The notes beneath the pieces are model-generated. The model was not told the DNA's origin and searched no databases. It saw only the letters and a list, made by a program, of their open reading frames with translations. From the NCBI RefSeq assembly GCF_014207845.1, contig NZ_JACHLC010000001.1:62001-126000 (forward strand): a stretch of DNA of 64,000 nt. Direction: 5' to 3'. Both the position numbers and the translations under genes were made by a program. The stretch comes from Chryseobacterium shigense. Lineage in GTDB: Bacteria; Bacteroidota; Bacteroidia; Flavobacteriales; Weeksellaceae. Below, one piece after another: positions 34,411-50,335 of this stretch. Numbering within the stretch: the first letter of the stretch is position 1; each line of letters begins with the position of its first letter.

Positions 34411-34668
34411 ATAAGCAAAGTATTTTTTTTTCAACATAAATTTTAACTTTCCTTTTTATTTTTTACCCGGACTCTGCATTTTGGGGAATAACTTGTTACT
34501 TTTTCCGGCATTTATGTAAGATAACGGGCAAACCAGAATGCTGTGTGGTACAGTCATTATAAAAATTGACCGTAAATCGAGAAACAGAAGCAATAAAAAG
34601 TTTTAGTATTAAGGTATATATCAAGTATTTAACATGAGTGCATCACACTCGCCAATAAGCTGATATAC
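34411..34668. other. Start of the surface-protein island, non-coding
   Basis: AT-rich spacer without a recognised gene. A short hairpin GAGTG-CATCA-CACTC (34636-34650) sits just before the conserved 42-bp element and uses the same GAGTG/CACTC letters as that element. Confidence 0.45.
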
Positions 34669-34738
34669 GTTTATATACTCGTGAGTATTTATGAGTGTGT
34701 TTTTTTTGTGGTACCAGGGAACAATAAGGATAAATTTG
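34669..34738 (+). promoter_or_regulatory. Copy 1 of the conserved operator/promoter module, upstream of the regulator gene
   Basis: The 42-bp element (34669-34710) carries CTCGTGAG and GAG-N7-GAG with a 10-bp period, ending in a T run and TTG (34706-34708). TAAATTTG, a match to TAnnTTTG, lies at 34731-34738 after a 22-base spacer. Copy 3 has the same spacing, and 36 of 42 bases are identical between the two. Confidence 0.65.
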
Positions 34739-34789
34739 CTGTTTTATTAAACTATCTGGTTGAAAAGAAATTGTATAATACATACACAA

Positions 34790-34838
34790 ATGAGGCTAAA
34801 CGCAATTTCCGGACAGGTAGGTATTAATACTTTACACT
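34790..34838 (+). pseudogene. Remnant of an exported-protein N-terminus
   Basis: In the leader of the regulator gene a frame beginning ATG 34790 reads MRLNAISGQVGINT. Bases 34811-34830 match 42404-42423, the signal-peptide end of the 469-residue protein, at 19 of 20 positions. The frame then runs out of homology and into the regulator gene in another frame. I read it as a decayed fragment of a paralogous gene. Confidence 0.4.
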
Positions 34839-35846
34839 ATGGCTTTGAAAAAAAAATTTTTTTCTTCAAAATTTTTACAATTATCAGGATTTATTTCTTC
34901 ATGGGGGATCAATGAAAATACGAACGAATCTGAAAAGAACTTCACAGTACTGATTAATCAATATTTGGTACTGCTTTTCATTATTTTTTTCTTTCACAGT
35001 ATTTCTATTATTGTATTTTTAGGAATAACACCGGATAGTATTTTTTTGGGATGCATCTCTTTTTTCTGGATAGGATCAATGCTGTTAAAAGAATATAGAA
35101 AAAATAAAAAGGTAATTATCTGTACTTTTATCTTTCTGTGTCTGGTTATTACCTATTATTCTTCGCTCTGCGGACAGGAAAGCGGTGTCTTTTTGTTCTA
35201 TTTTTCGCTAATATCAGCGCTGCCCTTTTTTTTTGAGATCAAAACAGAAAAAAAAATCATTTATTCTATCGCTTGTTTCGTTCTTGTGCTTCTGTATATC
35301 ACAGTAATATATGATTTTCAGTTAGTTGATAAGAATTCCTTGATCGTTGCTGAGAAATATGAAAAAAAACTAATGCTCCTGAATGTAACTTTCAGCATAT
35401 TGGTTTTTGTTGTGGATTATTATTTTATAGAAAGGAAAAGGTTGATTGTTTCCATGCTTCGGTCTGAAAATGAATATAATATTAATACAATTAAAACATT
35501 ACAGACAGAAAACGAACGGCTGCTGAAGAACCAGTTTATAGTAAACAATCTCACAGAAGACAATATTGATGAGATTATGAAGCTTGCCCAAAAGGATGAC
35601 CCTTTCTTTTTAGATAAATTTCAGTTCTTCTTTCCTGATTTTTTTTCCAGACTGGATGCCGAGACAAAGCTTATTTTATCTGATCAGCGGTTGTGTGCAA
35701 TGATGAGGCTGAATTTAGATACCAAGCAGATAGCCACCTATACCAATACCACAATAAAATCCGTAGAAAGCAAAAAATACAGATTAAGAAAAAAACTGAA
35801 TATTCCTTCTGATGTAGAAATAACTCAGTGGATATTAAGGATTTAA
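34839..35846 (+). CDS. Membrane-anchored LuxR-type HTH regulator of the surface-protein island
   Basis: 335 residues. About six membrane helices lie between residues 45 and 200 (LVLLFIIFFFHSISIIVFL first, LLNVTFSILVFVVDYYFI last), a coiled-coil-like linker spans about 205-240, and a C-terminal helix-turn-helix follows (LNLDTKQIATYTNTTIKSVE, KYRLRKKLNIPSDVEITQWI). No receiver or enzymatic domain is present. This is a one-component membrane regulator of unknown signal. The conserved 42-bp module lies before this gene and before two further units, which suggests it controls itself and the island. A hairpin terminator follows. Confidence 0.78.
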   Translation: MALKKKFFSSKFLQLSGFISSWGINENTNESEKNFTVLINQYLVLLFIIFFFHSISIIVFLGITPDSIFLGCISFFWIGSMLLKEYRKNKKVIICTFIFLCLVITYYSSLCGQESGVFLFYFSLISALPFFFEIKTEKKIIYSIACFVLVLLYITVIYDFQLVDKNSLIVAEKYEKKLMLLNVTFSILVFVVDYYFIERKRLIVSMLRSENEYNINTIKTLQTENERLLKNQFIVNNLTEDNIDEIMKLAQKDDPFFLDKFQFFFPDFFSRLDAETKLILSDQRLCAMMRLNLDTKQIATYTNTTIKSVESKKYRLRKKLNIPSDVEITQWILRI

Positions 35847-35873
35847 ATAAAATGCCTTGTGTACTCATTTAGG

Positions 35874-35892
35874 CTCACTTATGTGAGTTTTT
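35874..35892 (+). terminator. Terminator of the membrane regulator gene
   Basis: The CTCAC-TTAT-GTGAG hairpin (35874-35887) is followed by TTTTT, 28 bases after the stop. It abuts copy 2 of the conserved module. Confidence 0.6.
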
Positions 35893-35956
35893 ACCCTTGC
35901 GAGTGTTTATGAGAGTTCTTTTTTTTGGAAAAAGAATGGATTAAAGGAGATTTTTG
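35887..35956 (+). promoter_or_regulatory. Copy 2 of the conserved operator/promoter module
   Basis: The 42-bp element at 35887-35928 (32 of 42 bases as copy 3) has the core CGAGTGTTTATGAG and a T run with TTG at 35925-35927. The expected -7 position holds GATTTTTG (35949-35956), which keeps TTTG but loses the first T of the consensus. It would drive the 36202 gene and possibly the giant gene after it. Confidence 0.5.
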
Positions 35957-36201
35957 TATCTACTTTAAAACACACTGACATATGATGAAACTTCGTTGCA
36001 ATAACGTACTTGTTATTAACTAATTACATTTTTATTACAGAACTATAGGATAGGAGCTTGCCAAGGTAGGTTTGTATTCTGCTTTCTGATGCTGAAAACA
36101 GCATCCGGACTTCTGTAAAGTTCAATTCTTTTAAATAATAGACACCTTTCATTCAAAATAATACCCTGAATATTTTTTTGAAAGACCCCATATATCTATC
36201 A
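35957..36201 (+). other. Long structured leader of the exported-protein gene
   Basis: About 240 bases separate the module from the ATG at 36202. They contain a 13-codon frame MMKLRCNNVLVIN (35982-36023) and a perfect 7-bp hairpin with an AAAA loop (GATGCTG/CAGCATC, 36088-36105). No larger gene is seen. The leader could regulate translation or simply be relic sequence. Confidence 0.35.
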
Positions 36202-36840
36202 ATGGTAAAAAAACAAATAATCAAAACTTTTCATCCGGGATACTTTCTGATTATCAGAAGGTCTCTGGGGTTTTGTTATTTATTTTTTTGTTTCACGTCA
36301 TTCCCGTCACAGACATTTATCCATAATAAGAATTTCCTGCATAGCCATAAAGGAACTGTAATTCATATAGAACAGGATTCACAAACAGAAGCTGTTATTT
36401 TCATTGCAGATAAAACAGAGATTTCAGGATTAGAAAACATCAGTTCTTCCAAATATATAATAAAACAAAAAAACACCAAACTTTCAGACAAAGCCGCTAA
36501 AAAAAGAAGCTCTGATAAGAGTGTCAGGAAGCTGACTGGAGATAAAATGAATTCCTCTTCGCAGGTTTCCACTGTACATAAAACTTCTCCGGTAATCAGA
36601 AATATTTTCCAGCCAAAATCCAGCGAATATTTCACTACAGGCAGCCATTTTAATAATTCTGCGGTGATTCCTGCCGGTAATTTGAATATAAAAATAGCAG
36701 TGCTTTCTGCACCTTATTTTAACAGATTCAGGAATTTTTCATTAGATCCATCATTTGAAAAAAAATATTTATCCTTATTGATTTATAAGGTCTTAATTAA
36801 TAATCATACCGTAAGGCCTCCTCCCTGTAATGCCATATAA
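36202..36840 (+). CDS. Small exported or membrane-anchored protein of the island, unknown function
   Basis: 212 residues from the ATG at 36202; an in-frame TTG at 36178 is less likely. The N-terminus has a long hydrophobic stretch (YFLIIRRSLGFCYLFFCFTS) that can be a signal anchor. After it come a probable beta segment (KGTVIHIEQDSQTEAVIFI) and a basic, serine/lysine-rich middle (SDKAAKKRSSDKSVRK). The C-terminus is poorly structured. I do not recognise a family. It precedes the giant gene by 133 bases and probably shares its transcript. Confidence 0.55.
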   Translation: MVKKQIIKTFHPGYFLIIRRSLGFCYLFFCFTSFPSQTFIHNKNFLHSHKGTVIHIEQDSQTEAVIFIADKTEISGLENISSSKYIIKQKNTKLSDKAAKKRSSDKSVRKLTGDKMNSSSQVSTVHKTSPVIRNIFQPKSSEYFTTGSHFNNSAVIPAGNLNIKIAVLSAPYFNRFRNFSLDPSFEKKYLSLLIYKVLINNHTVRPPPCNAI

Positions 36841-36973
36841 ATATTTGTAATACAGTGAAAAAATATCCTGTATTGCATCTTATTATCCGCTTTATTATAA
36901 ATGTATAATGTCGTTCTGTTTCTATGGAATAGATCAGGCGGATTCTTTAAGTTATTAAATTTTATACAATTAG

Positions 36974-39900
36974 ATGAGAAAAACAAACATATTAATTTGG
37001 TGTATATTCTGCTTTTTCAGCAGTATGATATACGCCCAGACTCCGGGGGGAGTTGCAGGAACCACAATTGAGTACTGGTTGAGCGCAGATCAGGTACAAG
37101 CAAGTTTGCCTGCCGATGGTTCAGATATTACTGCTTGGCAAGATCTATCAGGAAATGGAAGAAACTTTAGTAACGGAGAAGCAAATCCATTTTTTCCAAA
37201 GTTTAATAAATCTGCTATGAATTTTCACTCAGCAGTAGATTTTTATTTTCAGGACTCAGATGATGGAGGACCAAGTGACGCCAATAATAGAAGAAGAAAA
37301 CTTATAGCAAATGCTAATTCATTAGTGCCGAATACAGGCAGATCTTATTTTGTGATTTGGATTTCTAAATTGGATCAGGGGAACTCGGCTTCGGAAGCTA
37401 CAGTATTTGGTCTTAATGGAGATACAAGTTCAGGAACCACCAATGGAAATCAATATGGATGGAATGGCAGCAACGGAAGATTATGGCATAGAACAAGAGC
37501 TACTGCATATACTCATAATAGTACAGCAGAGCGGAATTATGGAATTGGGATTGCTGTATTACCAAATAATAGCGGAACTGCCCAACAACAATATCTTAAT
37601 GCTTTAGCAAGCTCAACATCTATGCCGGGAAGAACATTAGGAACAGGAACGTTTCCTAGTGTAATAGGTACTTCGGCAACAGATACAGGCTCTGATCGTT
37701 ATTTCTTTGGAGAAGTTATGGAGATTATAGTAATGTCAAAAACTGGTACAGGAAATACACTTACTGCTGATGAGTTAAAAAAAATAAACACACATCTTGC
37801 CGTTAAATATGGTATCACATTAAATGCATCACAGACAGATTATATTCTTTCTGACGGTACATCCATTTATAATAGTGCCAATGCAGGATATACGGCTTAT
37901 AATAAGGATATTTTCGGTATTGCCAGAGATAATGCCAGCGGTTTATACCAAAAGCAGTCTGCAAGTACAGACAACCCTGTACTGACCGTTTATTTGGGAA
38001 GCACAATAGCAGAAACCAATGCTGAAAATACAGAAACTATGACAGATAAAAATGCACTTATGTTTGGTGCTAATGGCCTGTCAGGAAATGCTTCTTATTC
38101 TCATGATGTTGGGACTGCGTTTCAAAACTATACATTACAGTCGAATACAGATCCGGTTACAGGGGCTATCACATCAGAAAGATTGTCAATTATTTTCAAT
38201 TATAAATTAAGAGCCCAGACTACAGGACAGTCTTCTTTCACGGTAAATATGAAACCCGGCCAGGGAGAATGGCTTTTAGTAAGCAGCGATCCTACTTTTG
38301 CTCCGGCTAACACAAGAATCTACAAGATTACCGGAGGAAACGTAAATAACGTAGTAATCAACAATGGAGATTACGTAGGCTTTACATCATTTATTAAAGC
38401 ACCTGCTGGAGTTGCAAACGGGTTGAAAATGTGGCTGAATGCTTCTAAAGAAAGTACCATTACATTAAACGGTGCAGGAGAAGTAATTAACTGGGTAGAC
38501 CATGCAGGATACGGAACTACGTTTTCTAAGATTACTTCGAATTCCACAGCTCCGTTATATATGAGCTGTGATGAGAAGATGAACTTCCACCCGTCAGTAT
38601 ATTTCCGTCAGTCAGCGCAGTATTTATCGACACGTAAAGGTCCTTTTAGTGTTGCTGCCCCGGATGATTATACCATTTTTACAGCACTTAATGCTAACTT
38701 CAATACTTCAAACCGTATCTATTTTACATCTTACGGATCATTAACCCGAAGCCTATACCCTGCATTAGGGGTAAGAGAAGGTGCTACTAACCTGCAGGGA
38801 AGAGCCAGAATATATGACAGCGGCGGAGCAGGAGCTGTAGACGGTACCGCCATATTATTTAATGGTGGAGCTACAACAGCTATGGCGCATACCATGAAGA
38901 AAAATACCTATTTCCGGTTATATGCAGACAGCTATATGGAACAGCTTAACGAAACCAGTGCCGGACGAGGATCAAGAATGAACGGACCTGGTACTCTTGG
39001 TTATGGAGGATCATCCGATTCAAGAAACCTAATAGGGGTTATAGGAGAGCATATTGCTTACGAAGGAGATCTTTCAGATGCAGACCGTTATAAAATAGAT
39101 TCTTACCTGGGATTAAAATACGGAATTACCACAGACAGAAACAAAACATCCAATACAGTTAACTTTGATTTCGTTTTGTCAGACGGAACAATCGTTTGGC
39201 CGGGAACTTCTAACAGTGCGTATAATAATTATCACCACAATGTAGCCTCTGTAGTAAGAGACGATGTGGCAGATTTATACAACAGACAGGCTAAATCTAC
39301 CGATTTAGGAGCAATCCTGCATATGGGAGTAGGTACATCATTAGGATGTAATGCCCAGCTTACGGATATTATTAATGATAAGTCTGCCCTTACATGGGGA
39401 CATAATGCACAGCCGGTTACAACACTTTCATTAGCCGGAAATACAGCGATATGCGGTGCATTTGACAGCAAAATTAATGGCAGAATCTGGTTAGTGGATA
39501 ATACAAACTTTAACCAGAGTGTTTTGGTAAGAGCAGCAGGCGGGGACTTCCCGTACAGCGGTGCCAACTGGCAGGTGTATATGCTGGTAGCAGACAGTGA
39601 AGCTAAATTTGCAGCGAATAACTGGGATGAAGCTATTCCAATGACATTCTCCAATGGAGGACACCAGGCGAATTATAATTTTAACGATAAGAAAACGTAT
39701 ATTTCATTTGCAGCAAAACAGCTGCCTGGAGCGTGCGAAGCCTGTACATTCAGCGGAGTTAAAAAATTAGAGTTCAATACATGGACAAGAGGAGCAATGA
39801 CCAAATCTTATGATTTAGGTGACGGATTTACAGCTAACGTAAATGTAACCATTGAATCTCCTGCCACTATGAGGACCAACTATCCAAGAGCTTCCGACTA

Positions 39901-41461
39901 TAGATCATTGAGAGAATATAGAAGAGGAGATATTACCAAGAAGATGACCACAAAAGTTACCTTCTCAAAATCTGCCAATGCAAAATTTGAAATTTTTGAA
40001 ATCAGCAGAAGAACAGGAAGACTGGATAATGTAGAAGTGTACGGTATGTGCAGCGGAGGAAAAGTTTATCCTAAGCTAAGTTATACAAGAACTGCAGCAA
40101 GATCTTCTTATACTATCCTTGCTGACGGAAAATCTGTTGCAAAACCAATGTCTTCTTCTTATACAAGCACAAGAGGAAGAATGCAGGTAGAATTTGATCA
40201 GGCTGTAGAAGAAATATACATTGTACATTATGGAACCGGAAGTACTTCCGGAAGCGGAAATATGAGAATTGGTATAGGAGCCATGAAGCTGTCTTGTCCT
40301 AAAGCTCTCCCTCCGGCAAATGAAGACGGTTTAATATTTACCAAAGAAGCAGATACTGATGTACTGTTATGTAACGAAGTGAACTTTGCTTATAAAGTTT
40401 ACAACACAAACTGTGCAGTAAAAACAGTTAATTTTACAGATGTACTGCCTGCAGGAATGAAATGGTTAGGAAACAGCCTTTCAGCAGATCAGAATAATGA
40501 TGCAGCTGTAGATGCAGCGCCGTTATATGCTAACGGAAATACAATCAGCCTTACAGGTATAACTGTTCCTGGATCAGGATATGTTACAATCAGAGGAAAA
40601 GCGTATTTTGAAGATACGGCAGCAGCAGGATTATATGATACAGGACATGCTTCCATCAGCTATGTAAGCCTTGGTGTAAACAAAACACTTCAAAGTTGTG
40701 ACACATATGCGGCAGGCTGTGCAGTAACCACAGTAAATGCCCTGCCTACTCCAAACAGACCAAAACCTATTGTTGTCAATTCTTATGTTACAGACAAATC
40801 GTGTTACGATTCTGAAGGAGTAATTACAGTTACCTTAACAGTAGACAACCAAAATGCTTCTGCTGTTTCAGATGCAGTAGTAGATTTTAACTACACTGAT
40901 ACCTTTACATTGGTAGCGAATTCATTAAAAATCAACAATAATGATTTCCCGGCCGCCTCTTTAGAGACTACAGCAGGTGATATTTCTGTTGACGGATTTA
41001 ATCTGCCGGCAGGTGTCAGCACGATTACATTTAAGTTAAAAGCTCCTATTGTTGCCTCATTAATACCGGTGCCAGACGTTTTATCTATAGCTTATGACCT
41101 GTCGACTTCAGGAGAATCAGACTGTCAGCCTCTGGTTATTAGCGATAATAATGATGAACTTAATGTACCGTTCTGTGCTTACTGTACTCAAAACCCTTCT
41201 ACTGCAGCAGGTGTGAAATCTTCTGTAGGTATATCAACGCTTAAAACACAAGATGTTCAGGCTTGGATGAACGGCGTTAAAAATGGACAGATTGTAATAG
41301 AATCTAAAGAAAAAGGATTCATCATTACAAGAACTACAAGAGCTTCTATTGCACAGCCGGTTGCAGGTATGATTATTTACGATACAACCAGTGATGCAAA
41401 CTGTATCAGTTTATACAATGGTACTGCCTGGAAGTGTATAGAGAGAAAGTGTAACCAATAA
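36974..41461 (+). CDS. Giant secreted surface protein with laminin-G-like and DUF11-like domains
   Basis: 1495 residues. Signal peptide to about residue 22 (SSMIYAQ). Two similar halves follow, each beginning WLSAD or WLNASKE with a WQDLSGNG/WVDHAGYG strand, typical of a concanavalin-like fold. Each ends with a KYGIT-type block and YILSDGT/FVLSDGT (about 275-320 and 700-745), matching the repeat module of Bacteroidota surface proteins (DUF8202-like). A DUF11-like beta domain follows near residues 1120-1220 (VLLCNEVNFAYKVYNT). The C-terminus has GMIIYDTTSDANCISLYNGTAW. No type IX tail and no enzymatic motif are visible, so it is an adhesin-like or structural surface protein. Confidence 0.8.
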   Translation: MRKTNILIWCIFCFFSSMIYAQTPGGVAGTTIEYWLSADQVQASLPADGSDITAWQDLSGNGRNFSNGEANPFFPKFNKSAMNFHSAVDFYFQDSDDGGPSDANNRRRKLIANANSLVPNTGRSYFVIWISKLDQGNSASEATVFGLNGDTSSGTTNGNQYGWNGSNGRLWHRTRATAYTHNSTAERNYGIGIAVLPNNSGTAQQQYLNALASSTSMPGRTLGTGTFPSVIGTSATDTGSDRYFFGEVMEIIVMSKTGTGNTLTADELKKINTHLAVKYGITLNASQTDYILSDGTSIYNSANAGYTAYNKDIFGIARDNASGLYQKQSASTDNPVLTVYLGSTIAETNAENTETMTDKNALMFGANGLSGNASYSHDVGTAFQNYTLQSNTDPVTGAITSERLSIIFNYKLRAQTTGQSSFTVNMKPGQGEWLLVSSDPTFAPANTRIYKITGGNVNNVVINNGDYVGFTSFIKAPAGVANGLKMWLNASKESTITLNGAGEVINWVDHAGYGTTFSKITSNSTAPLYMSCDEKMNFHPSVYFRQSAQYLSTRKGPFSVAAPDDYTIFTALNANFNTSNRIYFTSYGSLTRSLYPALGVREGATNLQGRARIYDSGGAGAVDGTAILFNGGATTAMAHTMKKNTYFRLYADSYMEQLNETSAGRGSRMNGPGTLGYGGSSDSRNLIGVIGEHIAYEGDLSDADRYKIDSYLGLKYGITTDRNKTSNTVNFDFVLSDGTIVWPGTSNSAYNNYHHNVASVVRDDVADLYNRQAKSTDLGAILHMGVGTSLGCNAQLTDIINDKSALTWGHNAQPVTTLSLAGNTAICGAFDSKINGRIWLVDNTNFNQSVLVRAAGGDFPYSGANWQVYMLVADSEAKFAANNWDEAIPMTFSNGGHQANYNFNDKKTYISFAAKQLPGACEACTFSGVKKLEFNTWTRGAMTKSYDLGDGFTANVNVTIESPATMRTNYPRASDYRSLREYRRGDITKKMTTKVTFSKSANAKFEIFEISRRTGRLDNVEVYGMCSGGKVYPKLSYTRTAARSSYTILADGKSVAKPMSSSYTSTRGRMQVEFDQAVEEIYIVHYGTGSTSGSGNMRIGIGAMKLSCPKALPPANEDGLIFTKEADTDVLLCNEVNFAYKVYNTNCAVKTVNFTDVLPAGMKWLGNSLSADQNNDAAVDAAPLYANGNTISLTGITVPGSGYVTIRGKAYFEDTAAAGLYDTGHASISYVSLGVNKTLQSCDTYAAGCAVTTVNALPTPNRPKPIVVNSYVTDKSCYDSEGVITVTLTVDNQNASAVSDAVVDFNYTDTFTLVANSLKINNNDFPAASLETTAGDISVDGFNLPAGVSTITFKLKAPIVASLIPVPDVLSIAYDLSTSGESDCQPLVISDNNDELNVPFCAYCTQNPSTAAGVKSSVGISTLKTQDVQAWMNGVKNGQIVIESKEKGFIITRTTRASIAQPVAGMIIYDTTSDANCISLYNGTAWKCIERKCNQ

Positions 41462-41520
41462 TGCTATTTATATCTCTGTCTGTTTATGACAGGCAGAGAT
41501 TAATCAAAATTTTTATTAAC

Positions 41521-42030
41521 ATGAAAAAATTATTTTTATATATAGGCTTTCTTTCTTTTTCGGGCTTGGCTTTAGGTCAGGTGGCAATAGGAAAAAGCAC
41601 TATAACAAACAATAGTGTTTTATTAGAGTTTGATGACTCGGCATCAAATGCAAAAGGAATTATTCTGCCTTCTGTAAGTACAGTCCCTTCGGCTCCTGTT
41701 AACGGAACTTTTATTTTCAATGCAAACACAAAGAAAATTGAAGTTTACCAAAACGGCAGCTGGGTAGGACTTACAGATGCGGGAAATATTACAGGGCTTT
41801 ATAATAACAGCTCTTCAGAAGTTGCTTCTGCCGGAGTTATTATTGGGAATAAAGACACAGCACCCAAAGGAGCTTTAGTGCTGGAAAGTGATAACAAAGC
41901 ATTGATTCTTCCAAAAATTGGAAACCCGCATACTGCTGTAGGTTCTCCATATCCCGGAATGATCTGTTATGATACCGTAAGTAACTCTTTAGCTGTTTTT
42001 GATGGCAATGTCTGGAGTTATTGGAAGTAA
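41521..42030 (+). CDS. Exported protein with GMICYDTVS-type surface motif
   Basis: 169 residues from the ATG that opens a signal peptide (MKKLFLYIGFLSFSGLALGQ); the in-frame ATG at 41461 would add 20 residues ahead of it and is less likely. The mature part consists of short beta segments with two similar blocks (GTFIFNANTKKIEVYQNGSW, and MICYDTVSNSLAVFDGNVW). This pattern recurs at the end of the giant protein and near the start of the 469-residue protein. The function is unknown; co-expression with the giant gene (60-base gap) suggests a surface role. Confidence 0.65.
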   Translation: MKKLFLYIGFLSFSGLALGQVAIGKSTITNNSVLLEFDDSASNAKGIILPSVSTVPSAPVNGTFIFNANTKKIEVYQNGSWVGLTDAGNITGLYNNSSSEVASAGVIIGNKDTAPKGALVLESDNKALILPKIGNPHTAVGSPYPGMICYDTVSNSLAVFDGNVWSYWK

Positions 42031-42055
42031 AAATGAAATTTAACTATTCTATTTT

Positions 42056-42090
42056 AATTGCCGCTTACGAAAGTAAGCGGTAATTTTTTT
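42056..42090 (+). terminator. Terminator of the giant gene unit
   Basis: CCGCTTAC-GAAA-GTAAGCGG (42061-42080), extended by A-T pairs on both sides, is followed by T. It lies 26 bases after the stop of the 169-residue protein gene and isolates the upstream unit from the next promoter module. Confidence 0.85.
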
Positions 42091-42207
42091 AACCCCTTAT
42101 ATTTCATAATAAAAAAACACCTGATGTCATTTCTCCTGTTAAAATCCTTAAATGAATATTGGGTTAGTGTAGTAAGTGACTCATATTCAATTGATTTTGA
42201 CAGACAA
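42091..42207. other. Spacer before copy 3 of the module
   Basis: AT-rich spacer between the terminator and the third module copy. An 86-codon open frame that covers this region (42058-42318) shows no signal peptide, motif or coding bias and overlaps both the terminator and the promoter, so I do not call it a gene. Confidence 0.4.
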
Positions 42208-42277
42208 GTTTATATCCTCGCGAGTGTTTATGAGGGGGTATTTTTTGTGCGAAAAAAAGACAATTGCAATAATTTTG
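42208..42277 (+). promoter_or_regulatory. Copy 3 of the conserved operator/promoter module, upstream of the 469-residue protein
   Basis: The 42-bp element at 42208-42249 has CTCGCGAG, CGAGTGTTTATGAG, a T run and TTG at 42245-42247. TAATTTTG (TAnnTTTG) lies at 42270-42277 with the same 22-base spacer as copy 1. The -7 box is 72 bases before the ATG at 42350. Confidence 0.65.
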
Positions 42278-42349: not shown

Positions 42350-43759
42350 ATGATGAAAAAAGCTTTATTAATAACATCTATGTTATTTTCAGTTGCTGTT
42401 TTTGGACAGGTAGGTATCAATACGGGAAATCCTAATTCCAAATCAGGCCTGCATGTATCCGAAAGAAATGATCCTGCAAGTACATCCGCACCGGACAGAT
42501 ATAGCGGTGTCATTGTACCGCGTTATACAACAGGGGAAAGAGCGAATATTAATCCCGCTGCCACTGAAAACGGATTAACCATCTATAACGTTACCTCCAA
42601 CTGTTATAACATATGGAACTGGAATGCACAGACCTCAACAGGTGCCTGGGCAGAATCATGCGGGCAGAAACCCGCAAGTGTGGATTTTACCAATTGTGCG
42701 GCTGTTAAAGTAGAAGGCGTTTATAACTCGGATCTGCTGGTAGGCGGGAACCAAACCGTGAGAATTGTGGTTCCGGTAAACGTTACCGCTTTAGGAACCT
42801 ACAGCTACTCTGGTCTTATTAATGGAGTGACCTTCAAGGCAGAAGGGACATTCGTTAATTTGGGAGCCCAGAACGTATACTTATACCCTTCCTCAGGTAC
42901 ACCAACAGTGGCATCTACTACCGCTACAGGTTCTGTAACCATTGCACCCACCAACGCTGCTGGAGCAGCAGGAATTACATGCAGTAATATTTCATTAAAA
43001 TTTATTAGCAGAGCTTCTTCTACAATGATTATTCTTAATCTGCAGGGAGACCAGAATGGATCTAATCTTTTAGGTCCCGGAACAAATACAGGCGTTTACA
43101 CTACCGTGGGATCCTGGCTGAACGGCGGTGCATATTCTACAGCATTGGCAGCAAAAACCTATGCAGGAACTGCGGCGGTTTCCCTTATTAATGTACCGGC
43201 CGGTAATGCAGGAGATATAACCAGATTCAATAACCTGTTGAAAAGAGCATCTATTGTTTGGGTAGGTGCAAGAGAATGGACTGCAAGCCAGGGGACAGCT
43301 TATGGAAACTTATTAAAAGACTGGGTTGCTGCGAAACAGGGAATAGTAATGATAACAGGAGACAAAGATGAAGAAGGAGGCATTGCCCAGGCAATGGGAT
43401 ATTATATAGAAAATGGAGATGCCCAGGCAAGTTCCGCTACTGGCTACACCGTACTGCCGGAAGTCTTTAATAACACAGCCATACCTACACCTTTTAACCC
43501 GTCGGGATATACCTTTGGATGGAGTTCTTCTAATGCAGGGCTTATCAGCTCCAATGCAGGAGTAGAAATAGCAGAGCTTACAGCAGGAAGCAGTGCAGGG
43601 GGTACCGTAATGTTCGGAGATACTACAAACGGAGTATTTATTTTCGGAGATAAATTCGGAGAGGGAAGCAGCAATGGAACAGCCGCACAAAGAAACAACT
43701 TTGGGAATTATCTGGTTGATATTTTCGCATGGTCCCTTAAAAATGCACCAGTAAAATAA
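42350..43759 (+). CDS. Exported 469-residue surface protein with an amidotransferase-like C-terminal region
   Basis: 469 residues. The signal peptide ends at VFGQ, and mature QVGINTGNP begins the common Bacteroidota surface-protein pattern. A GLTIYNVTSNCYNIWNW block (about 75-95) matches the motif in its upstream neighbours. The middle is beta-rich (VRIVVPVNVTALGTYSYSG). From about residue 230 the sequence looks alpha/beta: MIILNLQGDQNGSNLL, then IVWVGAREWTASQG and GIVMITGDKDEEGGIAQAMG, a pattern reminiscent of ThuA/glutamine-amidotransferase-like folds, without a visible nucleophilic cysteine. The function is unknown. It has its own promoter module and a terminator. Confidence 0.65.
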   Translation: MMKKALLITSMLFSVAVFGQVGINTGNPNSKSGLHVSERNDPASTSAPDRYSGVIVPRYTTGERANINPAATENGLTIYNVTSNCYNIWNWNAQTSTGAWAESCGQKPASVDFTNCAAVKVEGVYNSDLLVGGNQTVRIVVPVNVTALGTYSYSGLINGVTFKAEGTFVNLGAQNVYLYPSSGTPTVASTTATGSVTIAPTNAAGAAGITCSNISLKFISRASSTMIILNLQGDQNGSNLLGPGTNTGVYTTVGSWLNGGAYSTALAAKTYAGTAAVSLINVPAGNAGDITRFNNLLKRASIVWVGAREWTASQGTAYGNLLKDWVAAKQGIVMITGDKDEEGGIAQAMGYYIENGDAQASSATGYTVLPEVFNNTAIPTPFNPSGYTFGWSSSNAGLISSNAGVEIAELTAGSSAGGTVMFGDTTNGVFIFGDKFGEGSSNGTAAQRNNFGNYLVDIFAWSLKNAPVK

Positions 43760-43891: not shown

Positions 43892-46800
43892 ATGAAAAAG
43901 ATTTTAATACCGGTATTATTCTTGCCATTTGCTATCTCTGCCCAGAACCTTTTCCAGATGGAAGTTTCTACGCAGAATAATGATGTAGAAATAAGAGCAA
44001 ATAATACAGCTGATATTGCAAGTTCTGACCTGGAGCTTGCAGGGAGAGACGGAACTGTTTCTCAGGAAACCTATTTAAGATTTGAAGGTATTACATTGCC
44101 CTCAGATGCGGTTATCAATAATGCCTACCTTGTATTCTATGGTGATGAGGCAAGCAGTACTCCGACTGTTATAAAAATTACCGGGGAAATAGGAGGCTCT
44201 CTGGCATATCCTGCATCTACTGCGGCGACAACCGGACAGAACATAAAGTCAAGAAATTACAGCACCTCTTTTGCAGAATGGATAACCGCCGGCTGTGTAC
44301 TGAACCAAAAATACCAGTCACCGGATTTGAAAAACGTTATTCAGGAAATGTTCCCTAACGGGATCAGCAATGCTGATCTTGCATTCCGCCTGCAGGGAAA
44401 TGAGCAGGGTGCCTTTACTGTAAAATCTTTCTCAGATGCTGCCTACAGACCAAAGCTGGTTATAGATTACTGGTCTATGCAGGGATCTACAGCATCAGTA
44501 GTTGCATCAGCTAATGATGACGGACGCGAAAGTACATCTGGTGTGATGACATTAGGAAGTGCTTATCTCCAAATCGGAGGAAGAGCTGATTCCAAAGATA
44601 ATGCAGTCCGTTTTCAGAATGTTCAGATTCCGGCAGATGCACAAATCACAGATGCTTATATCGAATTTTATACCTATGGGGCAAGCCCGGCAGGAAATGC
44701 CGATATCTATTCCGAAATTGGGAACCCGGATATCTACAGTACTGCGGCAAAAAATATAACTTTAAGAGAACGTTCAGTAAATAAAGTAAACTGGCAGACT
44801 GCGGCATGGACTGCTGACTTTACCAAAAACCGCACACCCAACCTCAAAAATATTATAGAAGAAAACCGCCTGAGCGGATGGCAGTCTGGCAATAGCCTTG
44901 CTTTTCAGTTTAAAGGGACAGGAACAAATAACAGTATGGCAGTACGTTCTTTCGAAGGCGGTGTCAACTACCGTCCAAGGTTGGTAGTAGAATATCAGAA
45001 CAACGGGCAGGGAGCATCTATTGACGGAGCAGTAACTGATCCGGCTTTAATGAACCAGCTTTATATTAATGAGATTTCTTCTCAGGGTACTGTAGCACAA
45101 GATGAAGACTGGATAGAATTATACAATAACAGTGACGACAACCTGCATATAAAAGGAGGAATCTATCTATCCAACAAAAGTACAGACAGAACATTACACG
45201 AGCTTAAAAATATCTTTATTCCCGCTCATGGATTTGCTGTTTTTCAGGCGGATAAAAAAACTGAAAAAGGAAATCAGCATTTAAATTTTGACCTGAAAAA
45301 TTCCGGAGCTACCATTTATCTTTCCAGAAAAGAAGCAGGAAATATTGTTTCCCAGAATGAACTGACTTACGGAAATGTACCTTTTAACCAATCTGTAGGA
45401 AGGCTGCCGAATGGTACAGGAAGCCTAACCAATTTTATTACACCTACCTATAAAGTATCTAATGCAGAAGGAAAACAAAAATTAGATCTTGCATTCAGTA
45501 AAGAAAGAGGAATCTATCCGTCAGGATTTGATCTGACAATTTCTGCACCGGCCGGTACAACCATTAAATATACACTTGATGGGAAATATCCGTCAGAAAC
45601 GGTGGGAACTGTGTATTCCGGGCCCATTACTATAGACAAGACATCCGTTGTTAAAGTATATGCATATAACGCGGCCGGTAATTCGGAGACCATAGCACAG
45701 ACTTATGTTCTGAAAAATAACTATGCCAATGAAAATACAAGCGGAGGATATAACCAATGGCTGTATAAATCTAATATTACGGCAGATGAATATGCTCAGG
45801 CTATTGCAGAAATACCGGTAGTTTCTGTCTCTACAAATGCTGAACCCAGCAATACTGTATGGGCACAGGGATCAGTAGAATACATTGATAATAATGTGTA
45901 CAGCGGAAGAGCCAATTTCTTCAGCAATTCAATGACAAGAAAATTCGGGCAGGAAAGTGTAGCTTTTTACAATCCGAACCTTAAGTTTAAGTTCAATGCC
46001 GATGCAGGTGTGAAGAAGGCTAATTATCCTTTCTTTGATGCCTACCCGGGAGATGCTTTCGAAATGCCTGAAAAAATTCAGACCATCGAATTGAAACAGG
46101 GGCAGGATAACGCAACAAGAAATGTATACAACCTTGGATTTATGCGTTACAGCGAAAAAATTTCGATGAATCTGCAGAAAGAAATGGGGAAATATGCATT
46201 GGAAACCCGTTATGTTAACCTCTTTATTAACGGTAAATACCGCGGCCTGAAAACAATGCGTAATGACTTTAATCCCAATAACCTTGAAGAAGTATTTGGA
46301 GATAATGATGATAACTACACAAAAGTAAATCTTCAGGACGGGTATTTCACCAACGGAATTGTAGAAGCCGGAGACGGTGATACTGCGGTTTGGAATACCA
46401 TCAGAAGTACTGCTACAGCCAGAAATTTCCAGCAGTTCAAAAACCTGGTAGATGTAGATGATCTGATCAAGTTCCAGATCATGTTTATGTTTACCGATAC
46501 CGAAAACGAAGCGGTGGCTATCACCCATAATACAGATGCTGATGTAATGAAAGCCAAATTTATGATCAATGATACGGACGGATCATTCTTTGGAGGACTT
46601 ACAGCTTCATCATCCAACGTAACGCTGAATCCGTTAGGATTTGCCGGCGGTGGCGGAAATTATAAGTACAAATGGCAGTTGACTGCCAGCAGAAATGGTC
46701 CGGGTGCACTTTTTGGACAGTTTATGGGTTCAAATACGAATGCTTCCACAGGAAATTTAGAGTTCAAGACTCTGGTTAAAGATGCTGTATTGAAATATAT

Positions 46801-48034
46801 AGGTCCAGCTTCCGGCAGTTTCTCAGGAACAGACGGAGCTCCTTTATCTGTAGCACATGTACAGAATAAAATGACTGAAACGATGGCTGAGCTAGACAGA
46901 GTGTATAAACTTGATGCCGCCTATATGGGCTACACGGGTAATGTTTACCAGCAGTGGAAAACCGTTGATTATCCCCGTATTTTGGCGCAGGTGCCGGAAA
47001 GAGTAGGATTTACCCTAAAAAAATGGCTGGAATATAATATGGCGCACACACTGTCTGCTACCAATATTCTTGCTGCAGATGTTATTACGGAAACAGACAA
47101 TATTCAGATTGATAATCCGAATTCAGGAACACAGCTTTATTATACGCTGAACGGGAAAGACCCGATGGGCAATGACGGAGTGGTTTCTTCTGATGCTCAT
47201 CTATATAACGGAACATTTACACTGCCTGCAGGAAACTACAGTATTGCGGTACGTCCATTTACTACCAATAACTGGGGACCTATTTCATCCAAAGCAGTAA
47301 AAGTGGAAGCTCCGGAACTTGGTAAATTTGTGATTGCAGGAATTAACTATAAACCGCTTACTAATGGAGATGCCGAATTCGTATTAATATCAAATCCAGG
47401 TAATGCTGATCTGGATGTTTCCGGTTATACCATCTCTGATGCGGTAAACTATACATTCCCTCAGGGAACGGTAATCGGTCAAAATCAGACTATTATGCTG
47501 GCGAAAAACCTGTCGTTAATCTCAGGATTTGACCAGTATGCCAAATACCAGTGGACCAGCGGAAGTCTTAGTAATTCTGGTGAACCAATGACCTTTAAGG
47601 ATGTATCAGGAAATACAATAGACTATGTTTCTTACAGCAGTGCTGCACCATGGCCGGCTGAGGCAAACGGACAGGGATACTATCTGAAACTTATTGCTCC
47701 GGATCTGGATAATACACTTCCGGGAAGCTGGGAATCAAAATCTTTAACCTCTTCAAATGCCAAGAAAGGCTCTTCAAAACCTGTTGATAAGACAGAAGCG
47801 GTTACTTTGGCAAGCATAAGGGTGTATCCAAACCCTGTAAAAGATGTCTTACATATTGATCTGAAGGAGAAATCTGTAATCACAATTTACAATACCGGCG
47901 GACAGATGATTGAAACAAAATCGCTGAACGAAGGCAATAATACCCTACATGTTTCATACTGGAATAAAGGAATTTACCTGATCAGTATCTCCGGACAGAA
48001 AGAAACAAAAACGTATAAAGTAATTAAAGAATAA
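43892..48034 (+). CDS. CotH-kinase surface protein with type IX sorting tail
   Basis: 1380 residues. Signal peptide (AISAQ, about residue 18), then two DNRLRE-like beta domains (about 25-195 and 205-370). A lamin-tail domain starts LYINEISSQGTVAQDEDWIE (about 390-520), followed by a chitobiase-like beta segment (about 545-610) and a CotH kinase-like domain (about 640-1050) with LFINGKYRGLKTMRNDF, MFTDTENEAVAITHN and the metal-site-like INDTDGSFFGG. A second lamin-tail domain lies near 1150-1270, and the type IX tail (VYPNPVKDVLHID to YKVIKE) ends the protein. Family knowledge: CotH proteins are secreted protein kinases known from spore coats. The substrate here is unknown; neighbouring surface proteins are natural candidates. 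Confidence 0.85.
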   Translation: MKKILIPVLFLPFAISAQNLFQMEVSTQNNDVEIRANNTADIASSDLELAGRDGTVSQETYLRFEGITLPSDAVINNAYLVFYGDEASSTPTVIKITGEIGGSLAYPASTAATTGQNIKSRNYSTSFAEWITAGCVLNQKYQSPDLKNVIQEMFPNGISNADLAFRLQGNEQGAFTVKSFSDAAYRPKLVIDYWSMQGSTASVVASANDDGRESTSGVMTLGSAYLQIGGRADSKDNAVRFQNVQIPADAQITDAYIEFYTYGASPAGNADIYSEIGNPDIYSTAAKNITLRERSVNKVNWQTAAWTADFTKNRTPNLKNIIEENRLSGWQSGNSLAFQFKGTGTNNSMAVRSFEGGVNYRPRLVVEYQNNGQGASIDGAVTDPALMNQLYINEISSQGTVAQDEDWIELYNNSDDNLHIKGGIYLSNKSTDRTLHELKNIFIPAHGFAVFQADKKTEKGNQHLNFDLKNSGATIYLSRKEAGNIVSQNELTYGNVPFNQSVGRLPNGTGSLTNFITPTYKVSNAEGKQKLDLAFSKERGIYPSGFDLTISAPAGTTIKYTLDGKYPSETVGTVYSGPITIDKTSVVKVYAYNAAGNSETIAQTYVLKNNYANENTSGGYNQWLYKSNITADEYAQAIAEIPVVSVSTNAEPSNTVWAQGSVEYIDNNVYSGRANFFSNSMTRKFGQESVAFYNPNLKFKFNADAGVKKANYPFFDAYPGDAFEMPEKIQTIELKQGQDNATRNVYNLGFMRYSEKISMNLQKEMGKYALETRYVNLFINGKYRGLKTMRNDFNPNNLEEVFGDNDDNYTKVNLQDGYFTNGIVEAGDGDTAVWNTIRSTATARNFQQFKNLVDVDDLIKFQIMFMFTDTENEAVAITHNTDADVMKAKFMINDTDGSFFGGLTASSSNVTLNPLGFAGGGGNYKYKWQLTASRNGPGALFGQFMGSNTNASTGNLEFKTLVKDAVLKYIGPASGSFSGTDGAPLSVAHVQNKMTETMAELDRVYKLDAAYMGYTGNVYQQWKTVDYPRILAQVPERVGFTLKKWLEYNMAHTLSATNILAADVITETDNIQIDNPNSGTQLYYTLNGKDPMGNDGVVSSDAHLYNGTFTLPAGNYSIAVRPFTTNNWGPISSKAVKVEAPELGKFVIAGINYKPLTNGDAEFVLISNPGNADLDVSGYTISDAVNYTFPQGTVIGQNQTIMLAKNLSLISGFDQYAKYQWTSGSLSNSGEPMTFKDVSGNTIDYVSYSSAAPWPAEANGQGYYLKLIAPDLDNTLPGSWESKSLTSSNAKKGSSKPVDKTEAVTLASIRVYPNPVKDVLHIDLKEKSVITIYNTGGQMIETKSLNEGNNTLHVSYWNKGIYLISISGQKETKTYKVIKE

Positions 48035-48997: not shown

Positions 48998-50335
48998 TTA
49001 TTTCGTCAGGTCAAGGCCACCGAAGTTGCCGGAGCTCATCATGAGGAAAACACCGTTTGTTTTGTCTAAAGTTTGCCAGTATGCATGAAGATCTTCAGCA
49101 TTTGTAAATACCCTCAATCTGTCATTCTTAAACTTCTCTTTAATAAATTCCGGAGAAATCGGTTCCATTCTTTTGATTTTTAAAGCATCTTCAGAATAGA
49201 AAACAATGGCTTCATCCAAACCGTCCATAGCGTGATCGTACTGTTCAAGGAAAACAGGGTTTAAGCTTGAATAAGTATGAAGCTCCAGGAATCCGTATTT
49301 TTTTTCTTTTTTAAACTGCTCGCAGAAAGCTTTTACTGTAGCCTTTACCTTGCTTGGTGCATGGGCAAAATCTTTGTATAAAGTTCCCTGGTCTTCTCTT
49401 TCTACTTTTTCAAGACGCTTTGAAGCACCTTTGAAGCTCATAATGGCTTCGTAGAAATCTTCATCCATGATCCCCAGCTGCCGGCAGATATGTCTTGCTC
49501 CTTCCATATTCAGCAAATTGTGGGAACCGAAAACGGAAAGAGGAACATCGCCCATTTCAGTTTTCAGGTATACTTTTCCATTGCTGATTTCATATTCAGG
49601 GGTTTTGTAAGGAATTTTCCTGAAATAATTTTCAGCAGCTTCCACCACTTTTACCACTTCTGCATCCTCTTCATTGTATACCAGAACGCCGCCCGGAGTA
49701 ATACTTGCAACAAATTTTCTGAACTGATCTATATAATCATCAAATGTTTTGAATACATTAATATGGTCCCACGCAATACCACTCATCAAAGCAATATTCG
49801 GCTGATACAGAAGAAACTTTGAACGCAGATCGATAGGAGAGGAAAGGTATTCATCACCTTCCAGTACCATAAAATCATTTTCCTGCGTTAGTTTTACCAT
49901 ACAGTCAAAACCTTCAAGTTGTGCCCCTACCATAAAATCCACGTCTTTTTGGTGGAAGTTCAGTACATGAAGAATCATTGAAGTGATTGTTGTTTTTCCG
50001 TGTGAACCGGCAATTACCACTCTTGTCTTGTTTTTAGACTGTTCGTAAAGGAACTCAGGATATGAATAAATTTTTAAACCCAGCTCTTTTGCTTTTGCCA
50101 GTTCAGGGTTATCCTGATGAGCATGCATTCCAAGAATAACAGCATCAATATCCGGAGTTATTTTTTCCGGGAACCAGCCCATTTCCTGAGGCAGAATTCC
50201 TTTCTTTTCCAGCCTGGATTTTGAAGGTTCAAAAATAGCATCATCCGAACCTGTTACCTGATATCCTTTGTCTTTTAACGCAATAGCAAGATTATGCATG
50301 GCGCTTCCGCCAATAGCAATGAAGTGGGTTTTCAA
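48998..50335 (-). CDS. mpl: UDP-N-acetylmuramate:L-Ala-gamma-D-Glu-meso-Dap ligase
   Basis: 445 residues, a Mur-ligase: HFIAIGGSAMHNLAIALKDKGY (Rossmann-type start), VVIAGSHGKTTITSMILHVL with the P-loop, and LEGDEYLSSPIDLRSKFL near residue 158. The N-terminus of GGSAMHNLA type and the length agree with Mpl rather than MurC. It recycles the murein tripeptide by ligating it to UDP-MurNAc. It is the most downstream of four minus-strand genes (NUDIX, plsC-like, lipoprotein, mpl) with very short gaps, so probably one transcript. Confidence 0.9.
   Translation of the reverse strand: MKTHFIAIGGSAMHNLAIALKDKGYQVTGSDDAIFEPSKSRLEKKGILPQEMGWFPEKITPDIDAVILGMHAHQDNPELAKAKELGLKIYSYPEFLYEQSKNKTRVVIAGSHGKTTITSMILHVLNFHQKDVDFMVGAQLEGFDCMVKLTQENDFMVLEGDEYLSSPIDLRSKFLLYQPNIALMSGIAWDHINVFKTFDDYIDQFRKFVASITPGGVLVYNEEDAEVVKVVEAAENYFRKIPYKTPEYEISNGKVYLKTEMGDVPLSVFGSHNLLNMEGARHICRQLGIMDEDFYEAIMSFKGASKRLEKVEREDQGTLYKDFAHAPSKVKATVKAFCEQFKKEKKYGFLELHTYSSLNPVFLEQYDHAMDGLDEAIVFYSEDALKIKRMEPISPEFIKEKFKNDRLRVFTNAEDLHAYWQTLDKTNGVFLMMSSGNFGGLDLTK

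Follow-up and report, generated by a model that had tools for sequence, protein, structure and literature searches.

In the window, i.e., the whole 64,000-nucleotide stretch of the Chryseobacterium contig NZ_JACHLC010000001.1 (assembly GCF_014207845.1) that was analyzed, three related DNA elements precede the gene of a membrane regulator of 335 amino acids (aa), a unit encoding a small and a giant protein, and the gene of a 469-aa protein. Comparison with related genomes suggests that the element is very probably the regulator's own private control site, and we consider it likely that this one-component membrane regulator activates its own gene, together with private surface-protein genes, through the three predicted sites. 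The original prediction had described the element as the operator of a local regulon, joined to a -33 promoter box. The comparison supports the operator, the three promoters, the presence of the regulator among its own targets and the secreted appearance of these targets; the joining to the -33 box was not supported.

Operator core and promoter geometry

The three related 42-base pair (bp) elements are located at 34669-34710, 35887-35928 and 42208-42249, as originally predicted, and their pairwise identities are 36/42 (copies 1 and 3), 32/42 (copies 2 and 3) and 31/42 (copies 1 and 2). All three share the core GAGTRTTTATGAG. A dyad is present in each (CTCGTGAG, CTTGCGAG, CTCGCGAG), so that the palindrome described earlier is found, in an imperfect form in copy 2. 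The GAG direct repeat with a period of 10 bp consists of the right half of the dyad and a half-site 10 bp on, and the -7-like boxes follow the TTG after 22, 21 and 22 bases in copies 1, 2 and 3. In the window, a 20-base pattern with up to three mismatches matches these three places only, compared to 0.05 matches expected from 100 shuffles, a post hoc figure because the pattern was drawn from the elements themselves. In the complete genome, an 18-base core pattern with up to two mismatches again matches only these three places (none for the backwards control); with up to three mismatches, there are 6 matches compared to 5 in the control, so that matches beyond the three are noise for that pattern. 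A profile search of the same genome (E <= 0.01) added only two variant sites, both at a paralogous regulator locus. We take the conservation of the element in related genomes to be the independent evidence against chance.

For the analysis of operator anatomy, we used the window, the paralogous locus of the same genome (L046) and 55 further loci (L112-L166), which yielded 130 profile matches at E <= 0.05. Two matches on the opposite strand were left out of the resulting 128 sites: L136 14390-14443 (-) and window 49739-49786 (-), both weak and the latter inside the minus-strand open reading frame (ORF) 48998-50335. Three weak matches fell below the cut and were not counted, namely, the second Elizabethkingia site of L115 (E 0.096) and a plus-strand pair in L136 (E 0.03 and 0.06). 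Around homologues that are ~40% identical to the regulator, 31-bp elements of the form GAGTTTTACTACKCRYGMGTARTATTGMGTA precede the regulator unit and neighbouring genes, and 34 sites, including those of the window, align almost gap-free from the core through the -7 box. The predicted functional unit is this 31-bp core, i.e., the dyad plus the GAG half-site (GAG or GCG) 10 bp downstream of the dyad's right half, rather than the 42-bp block, which begins 2 bp inside the core and extends 13 bp past its end. The distance between the end of the core and the -7 box is 32 or 33 bp in 126 of the 128 sites; the remaining two, both of type B (see below), have spacings of 34 bp (L155) and 30 bp (L157). 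The box, TAnnTTTG, is exact in 100 sites and has one mismatch in 28. It is the same -7 box that PMC6847099 and PMC9723704 describe for Bacteroidota sigma-A promoters and place at -12 to -5. This placement puts the core at about -76 to -46, with the dyad centre at -61.5 (spacing 33) or -60.5 (spacing 32).

In contrast to those sigma-A promoters, no enrichment of TTG at -33 was found here: TTG occupies this position in 27 of 127 sites (the 128 minus one duplicate), compared to 26.9 in shuffled spacers. The proposed fusion of the operator to a -33 box is thus not supported, and nothing further follows from this absence; we rejected the reading of the element as a -33 extension. The longer TTTG shows a mild excess at -33 (19 of 127 sites, compared to 10.9 in shuffled spacers) that falls short of a common -33 motif. 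Even the two nearest relatives have a different T-run. What the relatives retain is the fixed core-to-box spacing of 32-33 bp, and not the TTG, although all three window copies have it as part of a TTTG. As a control, we examined 108 further TAnnTTTG sites that precede long ORFs in these loci and also found no excess of TTG at -33 (14 compared to 16.2), so that the lack of a -33 box is no special mark of the operator promoters. This is expected from the weak -33 motif in F. johnsoniae, which PMC6847099 describes as much less evident there.

The same geometry bears on two alternative explanations. A dyad followed by a T-run, as in the window, could be a terminator, and three direct copies flanking secreted-protein genes could be recombination sites of a switching system. 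However, the dyad has short arms, relatives lack a conserved T-run, and the element keeps a set distance to the downstream -7 box. Moreover, all but two of the 130 profile matches share the strand of the regulator, and these two are weak (15.3 bits each). Given this distance and orientation, we rejected both possibilities as highly improbable. Alternatively, the regulator might bind the sites as a repressor, keeping the locus silent until a signal relieves the repression. The sign of regulation is not readable from sequence, and autorepression is common among bacterial regulators. Nevertheless, a core at a fixed distance upstream of the -7 box in nearly all sites speaks against a repressor, which would need no such place, and we regard repression as unlikely, though less so than any other alternative considered here.

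Co-occurrence of operator and regulator

A sequence-only profile of the 34 aligned sites was run on 148 genomes of the genus (E <= 0.01), and the regulator was searched for in the same genomes (E <= 1e-30). Operator matches were detected in 64 genomes, with two or three matches in 54 of these, and the regulator was detected in 65. Both were present in 61 genomes, the operator only in 3, the regulator only in 4, and neither in 80 (Fisher p 1e-32, for species that are not independent). Subtracting the 14 genomes that contributed training sites leaves 47, 3, 4 and 80 genomes, respectively. Near-threshold matches were counted as they stand, including those of the operator-only genomes G066 (E 0.0025) and G115 (E 0.008) and that of G131. 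Among the matches listed (150 of 167), 148 sites are at most 2461 bp from a regulator gene (low end to low end). The two exceptions are window site 3, which is 7.4 kb off because the giant gene lies between, and G163:C98 near 70364 (L212), the sole strong orphan site. The latter lies beside the genes that usually adjoin the operator, but a good -7 box is not seen by eye; none of six locus proteins was found in 13 kb, and the site looks like a deletion scar. The 17 remaining matches are the weakest, and most of those listed in the family-level search adjoin regulators.

In the family-level search (246 genomes; sites at E <= 0.01; regulator by profile A3 at E <= 1e-40), 47 genomes had sites and 58 had the regulator. 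All 38 genus genomes with sites in this search are also in the regulator list, and all 4 genomes of genus g49, taken for Elizabethkingia from its tandem regulators, have sites beside their regulators. In Elizabethkingia, five sites of the same anatomy (spacing 33 in three, 32 in two) lie beside regulators that are 46-47% identical to that of the window. With respect to downstream genes, the first recognised gene within 700 bp of the 128 sites encodes a VGINT secreted-type protein in 45 cases, the regulator in 38, a small helix-turn-helix (HTH) protein in 35 and another ORF in 8, with none in 2; some of the type B loci have the site of the small HTH pair upstream of the regulator as well, in the same direction. 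A search of related genomes had been called for in the original prediction, and it shows the operator to be conserved beside the same regulator family and genes of surface-type proteins.

Operator types and regulator clades

We distinguish the following three groups of sites: (i) type A, from the window, C. shigense and C. carnipullorum (7 sites); (ii) type E, from Elizabethkingia (5 sites); (iii) type B, comprising 114 sites without the two of deviant spacing (L155 and L157). The A and E operators resemble each other and differ from type B. The seven type A sites score 32.1-39.1 with the A/E matrix, calculated with their own locus left out and close relatives kept, compared to 8.7-18.9 with the B matrix. 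Conversely, the 114 B sites have a median of 42.8 with the B matrix, from which they were not left out, compared to 9.8 with the A/E matrix (largest 24.6). The regulator tree contains the same split between A/E and B with a support of 100/100, on long branches. In the putative recognition helix, T305, K307 and S308 are found in 6 of 6 A/E regulators whereas all 34 B regulators have S, R and A there; in total, 29 columns of this alignment (A5) have such fixed differences, two of them being only N-terminal gaps. Both operator types occur in the genome of the window, where the weight matrices tell them apart. The paralogous type B locus on contig C3 (L046 3995-6239) consists of two operators, a small HTH pair, a regulator and a 602-aa VGINT protein.

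Two side observations concern these types. In type B operators, core positions 13 and 18 are asymmetric, (G,A) in 45 and (T,C) in 37 of the 114 sites, compared to symmetric (G,C) in 14 and (T,A) in 8; this asymmetry of the dyad halves may reflect ancestry or tuned affinity. In each of the Elizabethkingia loci L114 10001-12119 and L123 10001-12114, two regulators of this family stand in tandem, and they belong to opposite main sides of the tree.

A further question is whether the sites are read by a different DNA-binding protein, be it one of the small HTH pair at the locus or a factor whose gene lies elsewhere. Both members of the pair are present in 41 of 51 operator loci, 35 of the 128 sites precede the 137-aa member, and 16 of the 246 family genomes have the regulator without a site. 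However, both members are absent, within the stretch searched, from 9 of the 51 loci, three of them from Elizabethkingia, and one locus has the 106-aa member only; the pair was therefore judged an unlikely binder. A factor encoded elsewhere, in turn, does not explain why operator presence and type follow the regulator within the genus. It should be noted that the presence of the regulator in the 51 loci is no evidence, because the regulator was used to select these loci; the genome-wide co-occurrence is. Altogether, we find a different reader improbable.

The membrane regulator and its proposed action

Hydropathy of the regulator has seven peaks, two of them overlapping, which corresponds to about six transmembrane (TM) segments. 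Several TM segments are thus N-terminal to a putative HTH domain, with no receiver or kinase domain, as in membrane-spanning LuxR-type one-component regulators. Apart from weak HTH matches, no further Pfam domain was detected in the protein at E <= 1. Among the weak matches are the HTH end of the NCBIfam UvrY/SirA/GacA model (E 1.4e-4, well short of its cut-off) and, in PDB, PdeL (E 0.49). The closest relatives of the regulator are from C. carnipullorum (79%) and C. shigense (77%), followed by Elizabethkingia (46-47%) and then mostly by Chryseobacterium proteins of ~40% identity, including one homologue of its own genome on another contig.

Like the window regulator, ToxR and CadC are membrane-bound DNA-binding regulators that act on nearby genes; they differ in having an N-terminal winged-helix domain and a single TM helix. 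In the open-licence literature, we found no description of this operator or regulator. In its architecture, the protein is similar to LuxR-type regulators that span the membrane in Eggerthella and that have been shown to activate genes of catechol metabolism (PMC9734109). Coriobacteriia regulators such as DadR, HcdR and CadR are one-component proteins with an N-terminal multi-helix membrane part and a C-terminal LuxR-type HTH, a layout predicted for the window protein as well, and many diverged paralogues are encoded close to their likely target genes, as is the case here. Unlike these regulators, the window protein has about six hydrophobic segments rather than 10-12, belongs to another phylum and has an HTH below the Pfam GerE cut-off. 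The cargo consists of secreted surface-type proteins here and of metabolic enzymes there, and the operator was defined by comparison, whereas regulation in Coriobacteriia was shown by experiment (PMC9734109).

We propose that the regulator, whose gene lies between the first two elements, binds all three. Each site would comprise the two half-sites of the dyad and, facing the same side of the helix, at least a third one located 10 bp downstream. On perceiving a signal within or across the membrane, the regulator would alter its oligomeric state, bind at about -76 to -46, upstream of the sigma-A-type -7 box, and bring RNA polymerase to the promoters of its own gene, of the small/giant protein unit and of the 469-aa surface-type protein. 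The expected outcome is positive autoregulation of a private surface-protein locus, with activation from a position like that of class I activators such as CRP.

Several observations weigh against this model. First, the position of the dyad at -61.5 fits activation without proving it, and the constant spacing is partly built into the profile (gaps allowed), the -7 box being the best fit 26-40 bp on. Second, the HTH of the regulator scores 17.3 bits against Pfam GerE (PF00196; E 0.0037), below the curated cut-off of 23.5, and Sigma70_r4_2 matches it about as weakly (E 0.0051); at E <= 0.01, each of the two models finds 7 of the 46 homologues (best GerE E 0.0031). Third, the weak genus-level matches G160:C41 (E 0.0076) and G146:C11 (E 0.01) are on contigs without a listed regulator, and the counted G131 match (E 0.0017) has no listed place. 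Fourth, the family-level table contains 42 genomes with both, 5 with sites only, 16 with the regulator only and 183 with neither. The five sites-only matches (G240, G263, G287, G288 and G302; E 0.001-0.008) are probably due to chance. Two genomes of genus g35, G238 and G301, have strong regulator matches (7e-116 and 4e-111), but the site search found nothing in them at E <= 0.01, perhaps because their operators differ too much or are missing. Fifth, 6 of the 57 sources lack a counted site, and all six have clade C regulators. Among eight clade C loci examined by eye, two of which (L151 and L062) are partly near-copies, a related dyad-plus-GAG element precedes a -7 box in three (L164, L060 and L163). 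Sixth, even with the B matrix, scores are as low as 5.7-15.2 for the five weakest B sites. Finally, the differences in operator and HTH go back to what is essentially a single split, i.e., the co-variation amounts to one or a few events; it is consistent with co-evolution and does not represent a replicated test of it.

To our knowledge, few regulator-operator pairs have been defined in Bacteroidota, the promoters of which differ from those of E. coli. Here, comparison alone defines a 31-bp operator and its set distance from the -7 box, and points to a likely reader and to two distinguishable operator types in one genome. Activation at an unusual Bacteroidota promoter thereby becomes testable, and the two operator types are a possible pair of orthogonal parts.

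Genes of the locus

The sites, the -7 boxes and the genes of the locus are listed in Table 1.

Table 1. Operators, promoter boxes and genes of the regulator locus (window positions)
Feature	Coordinates	Strand	Remarks
Operator core, site 1, before regulator gene	34667..34697	+	R1 profile match 43.4 bits; 33-bp spacing
-7-type box TAAATTTG, promoter 1	34731..34738	+	33 bp after core
Membrane regulator, 335 aa	34839..35846	+	~6 hydrophobic segments (residues 43-197), linker, putative LuxR/GerE-like HTH ~280-335
Operator core, site 2, before small/giant protein unit	35885..35915	+	R1 profile match 32.0 bits
-7-type box GATTTTTG, promoter 2	35949..35956	+	one mismatch
212-aa protein, hydrophobic N-terminus, after site 2	36202..36840	+	C. 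shigense and C. carnipullorum counterparts (38-40%) follow the corresponding site
1495-aa secreted-type protein	36974..41461	+	weak DUF7933 match, E 0.0084
189-aa secreted-type protein	41461..42030	+	relatives follow the clade C regulators of L151 and L161
Operator core, site 3, before 469-aa protein	42206..42236	+	R1 profile match 44.6 bits
-7-type box TAATTTTG, promoter 3	42270..42277	+	33 bp after core
469-aa secreted-type protein, after site 3	42350..43759	+	N-terminal part homologous to VGINT protein
1380-aa protein sorted by the type IX secretion system, CotH and lamin-tail domains	43892..48034	+	candidate regulon member
Small HTH protein, 153 aa	48175..48636	+	counterpart of 137-aa protein with own operator in many type B loci; candidate regulon member
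Partner small HTH protein, 106 aa	48617..48937	+	

Scans against Pfam, NCBIfam and PADLOC assigned no family at E <= 0.001 to the 469-aa and 1495-aa proteins, nor did the scans covering the 189-aa protein, which were fewer. In a comparison of ten loci, the VGINT homologue of the 469-aa protein was a protein of ~600 aa that follows the operator in type B loci, and only the last ~50 residues of the 1495-aa protein had a match, in a 739-aa protein of L151.

Compared to C. shigense and C. carnipullorum, the 469-aa protein is 43-45% identical, the 1380-aa protein ~79% and the HTH pair 72-77%. Together with the 212-aa protein, the 469-aa protein thus appears to be the fast-changing cargo of a well-kept locus, and the operator offers a handle on when these bacteria make such a fast-changing secreted protein. 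At the loci of these two relatives, nothing corresponds to the 1495-aa/189-aa pair or to operator site 3. As these are present in the window and not at the two nearest loci, such loci may gain surface cargo by operator duplication, the cargo diverging fast and the regulator not. This forms part of a broader, tentative hypothesis, which sequence comparison makes conceivable rather than probable: the Weeksellaceae may possess a family of insulated membrane-to-DNA switches, each regulator reading only its own operator type, at about -61.5/-48 of promoters without a conserved -33 box.

By eye, inverted repeats with T-rich tails are seen before the gene of the 1380-aa protein and before the HTH pair.

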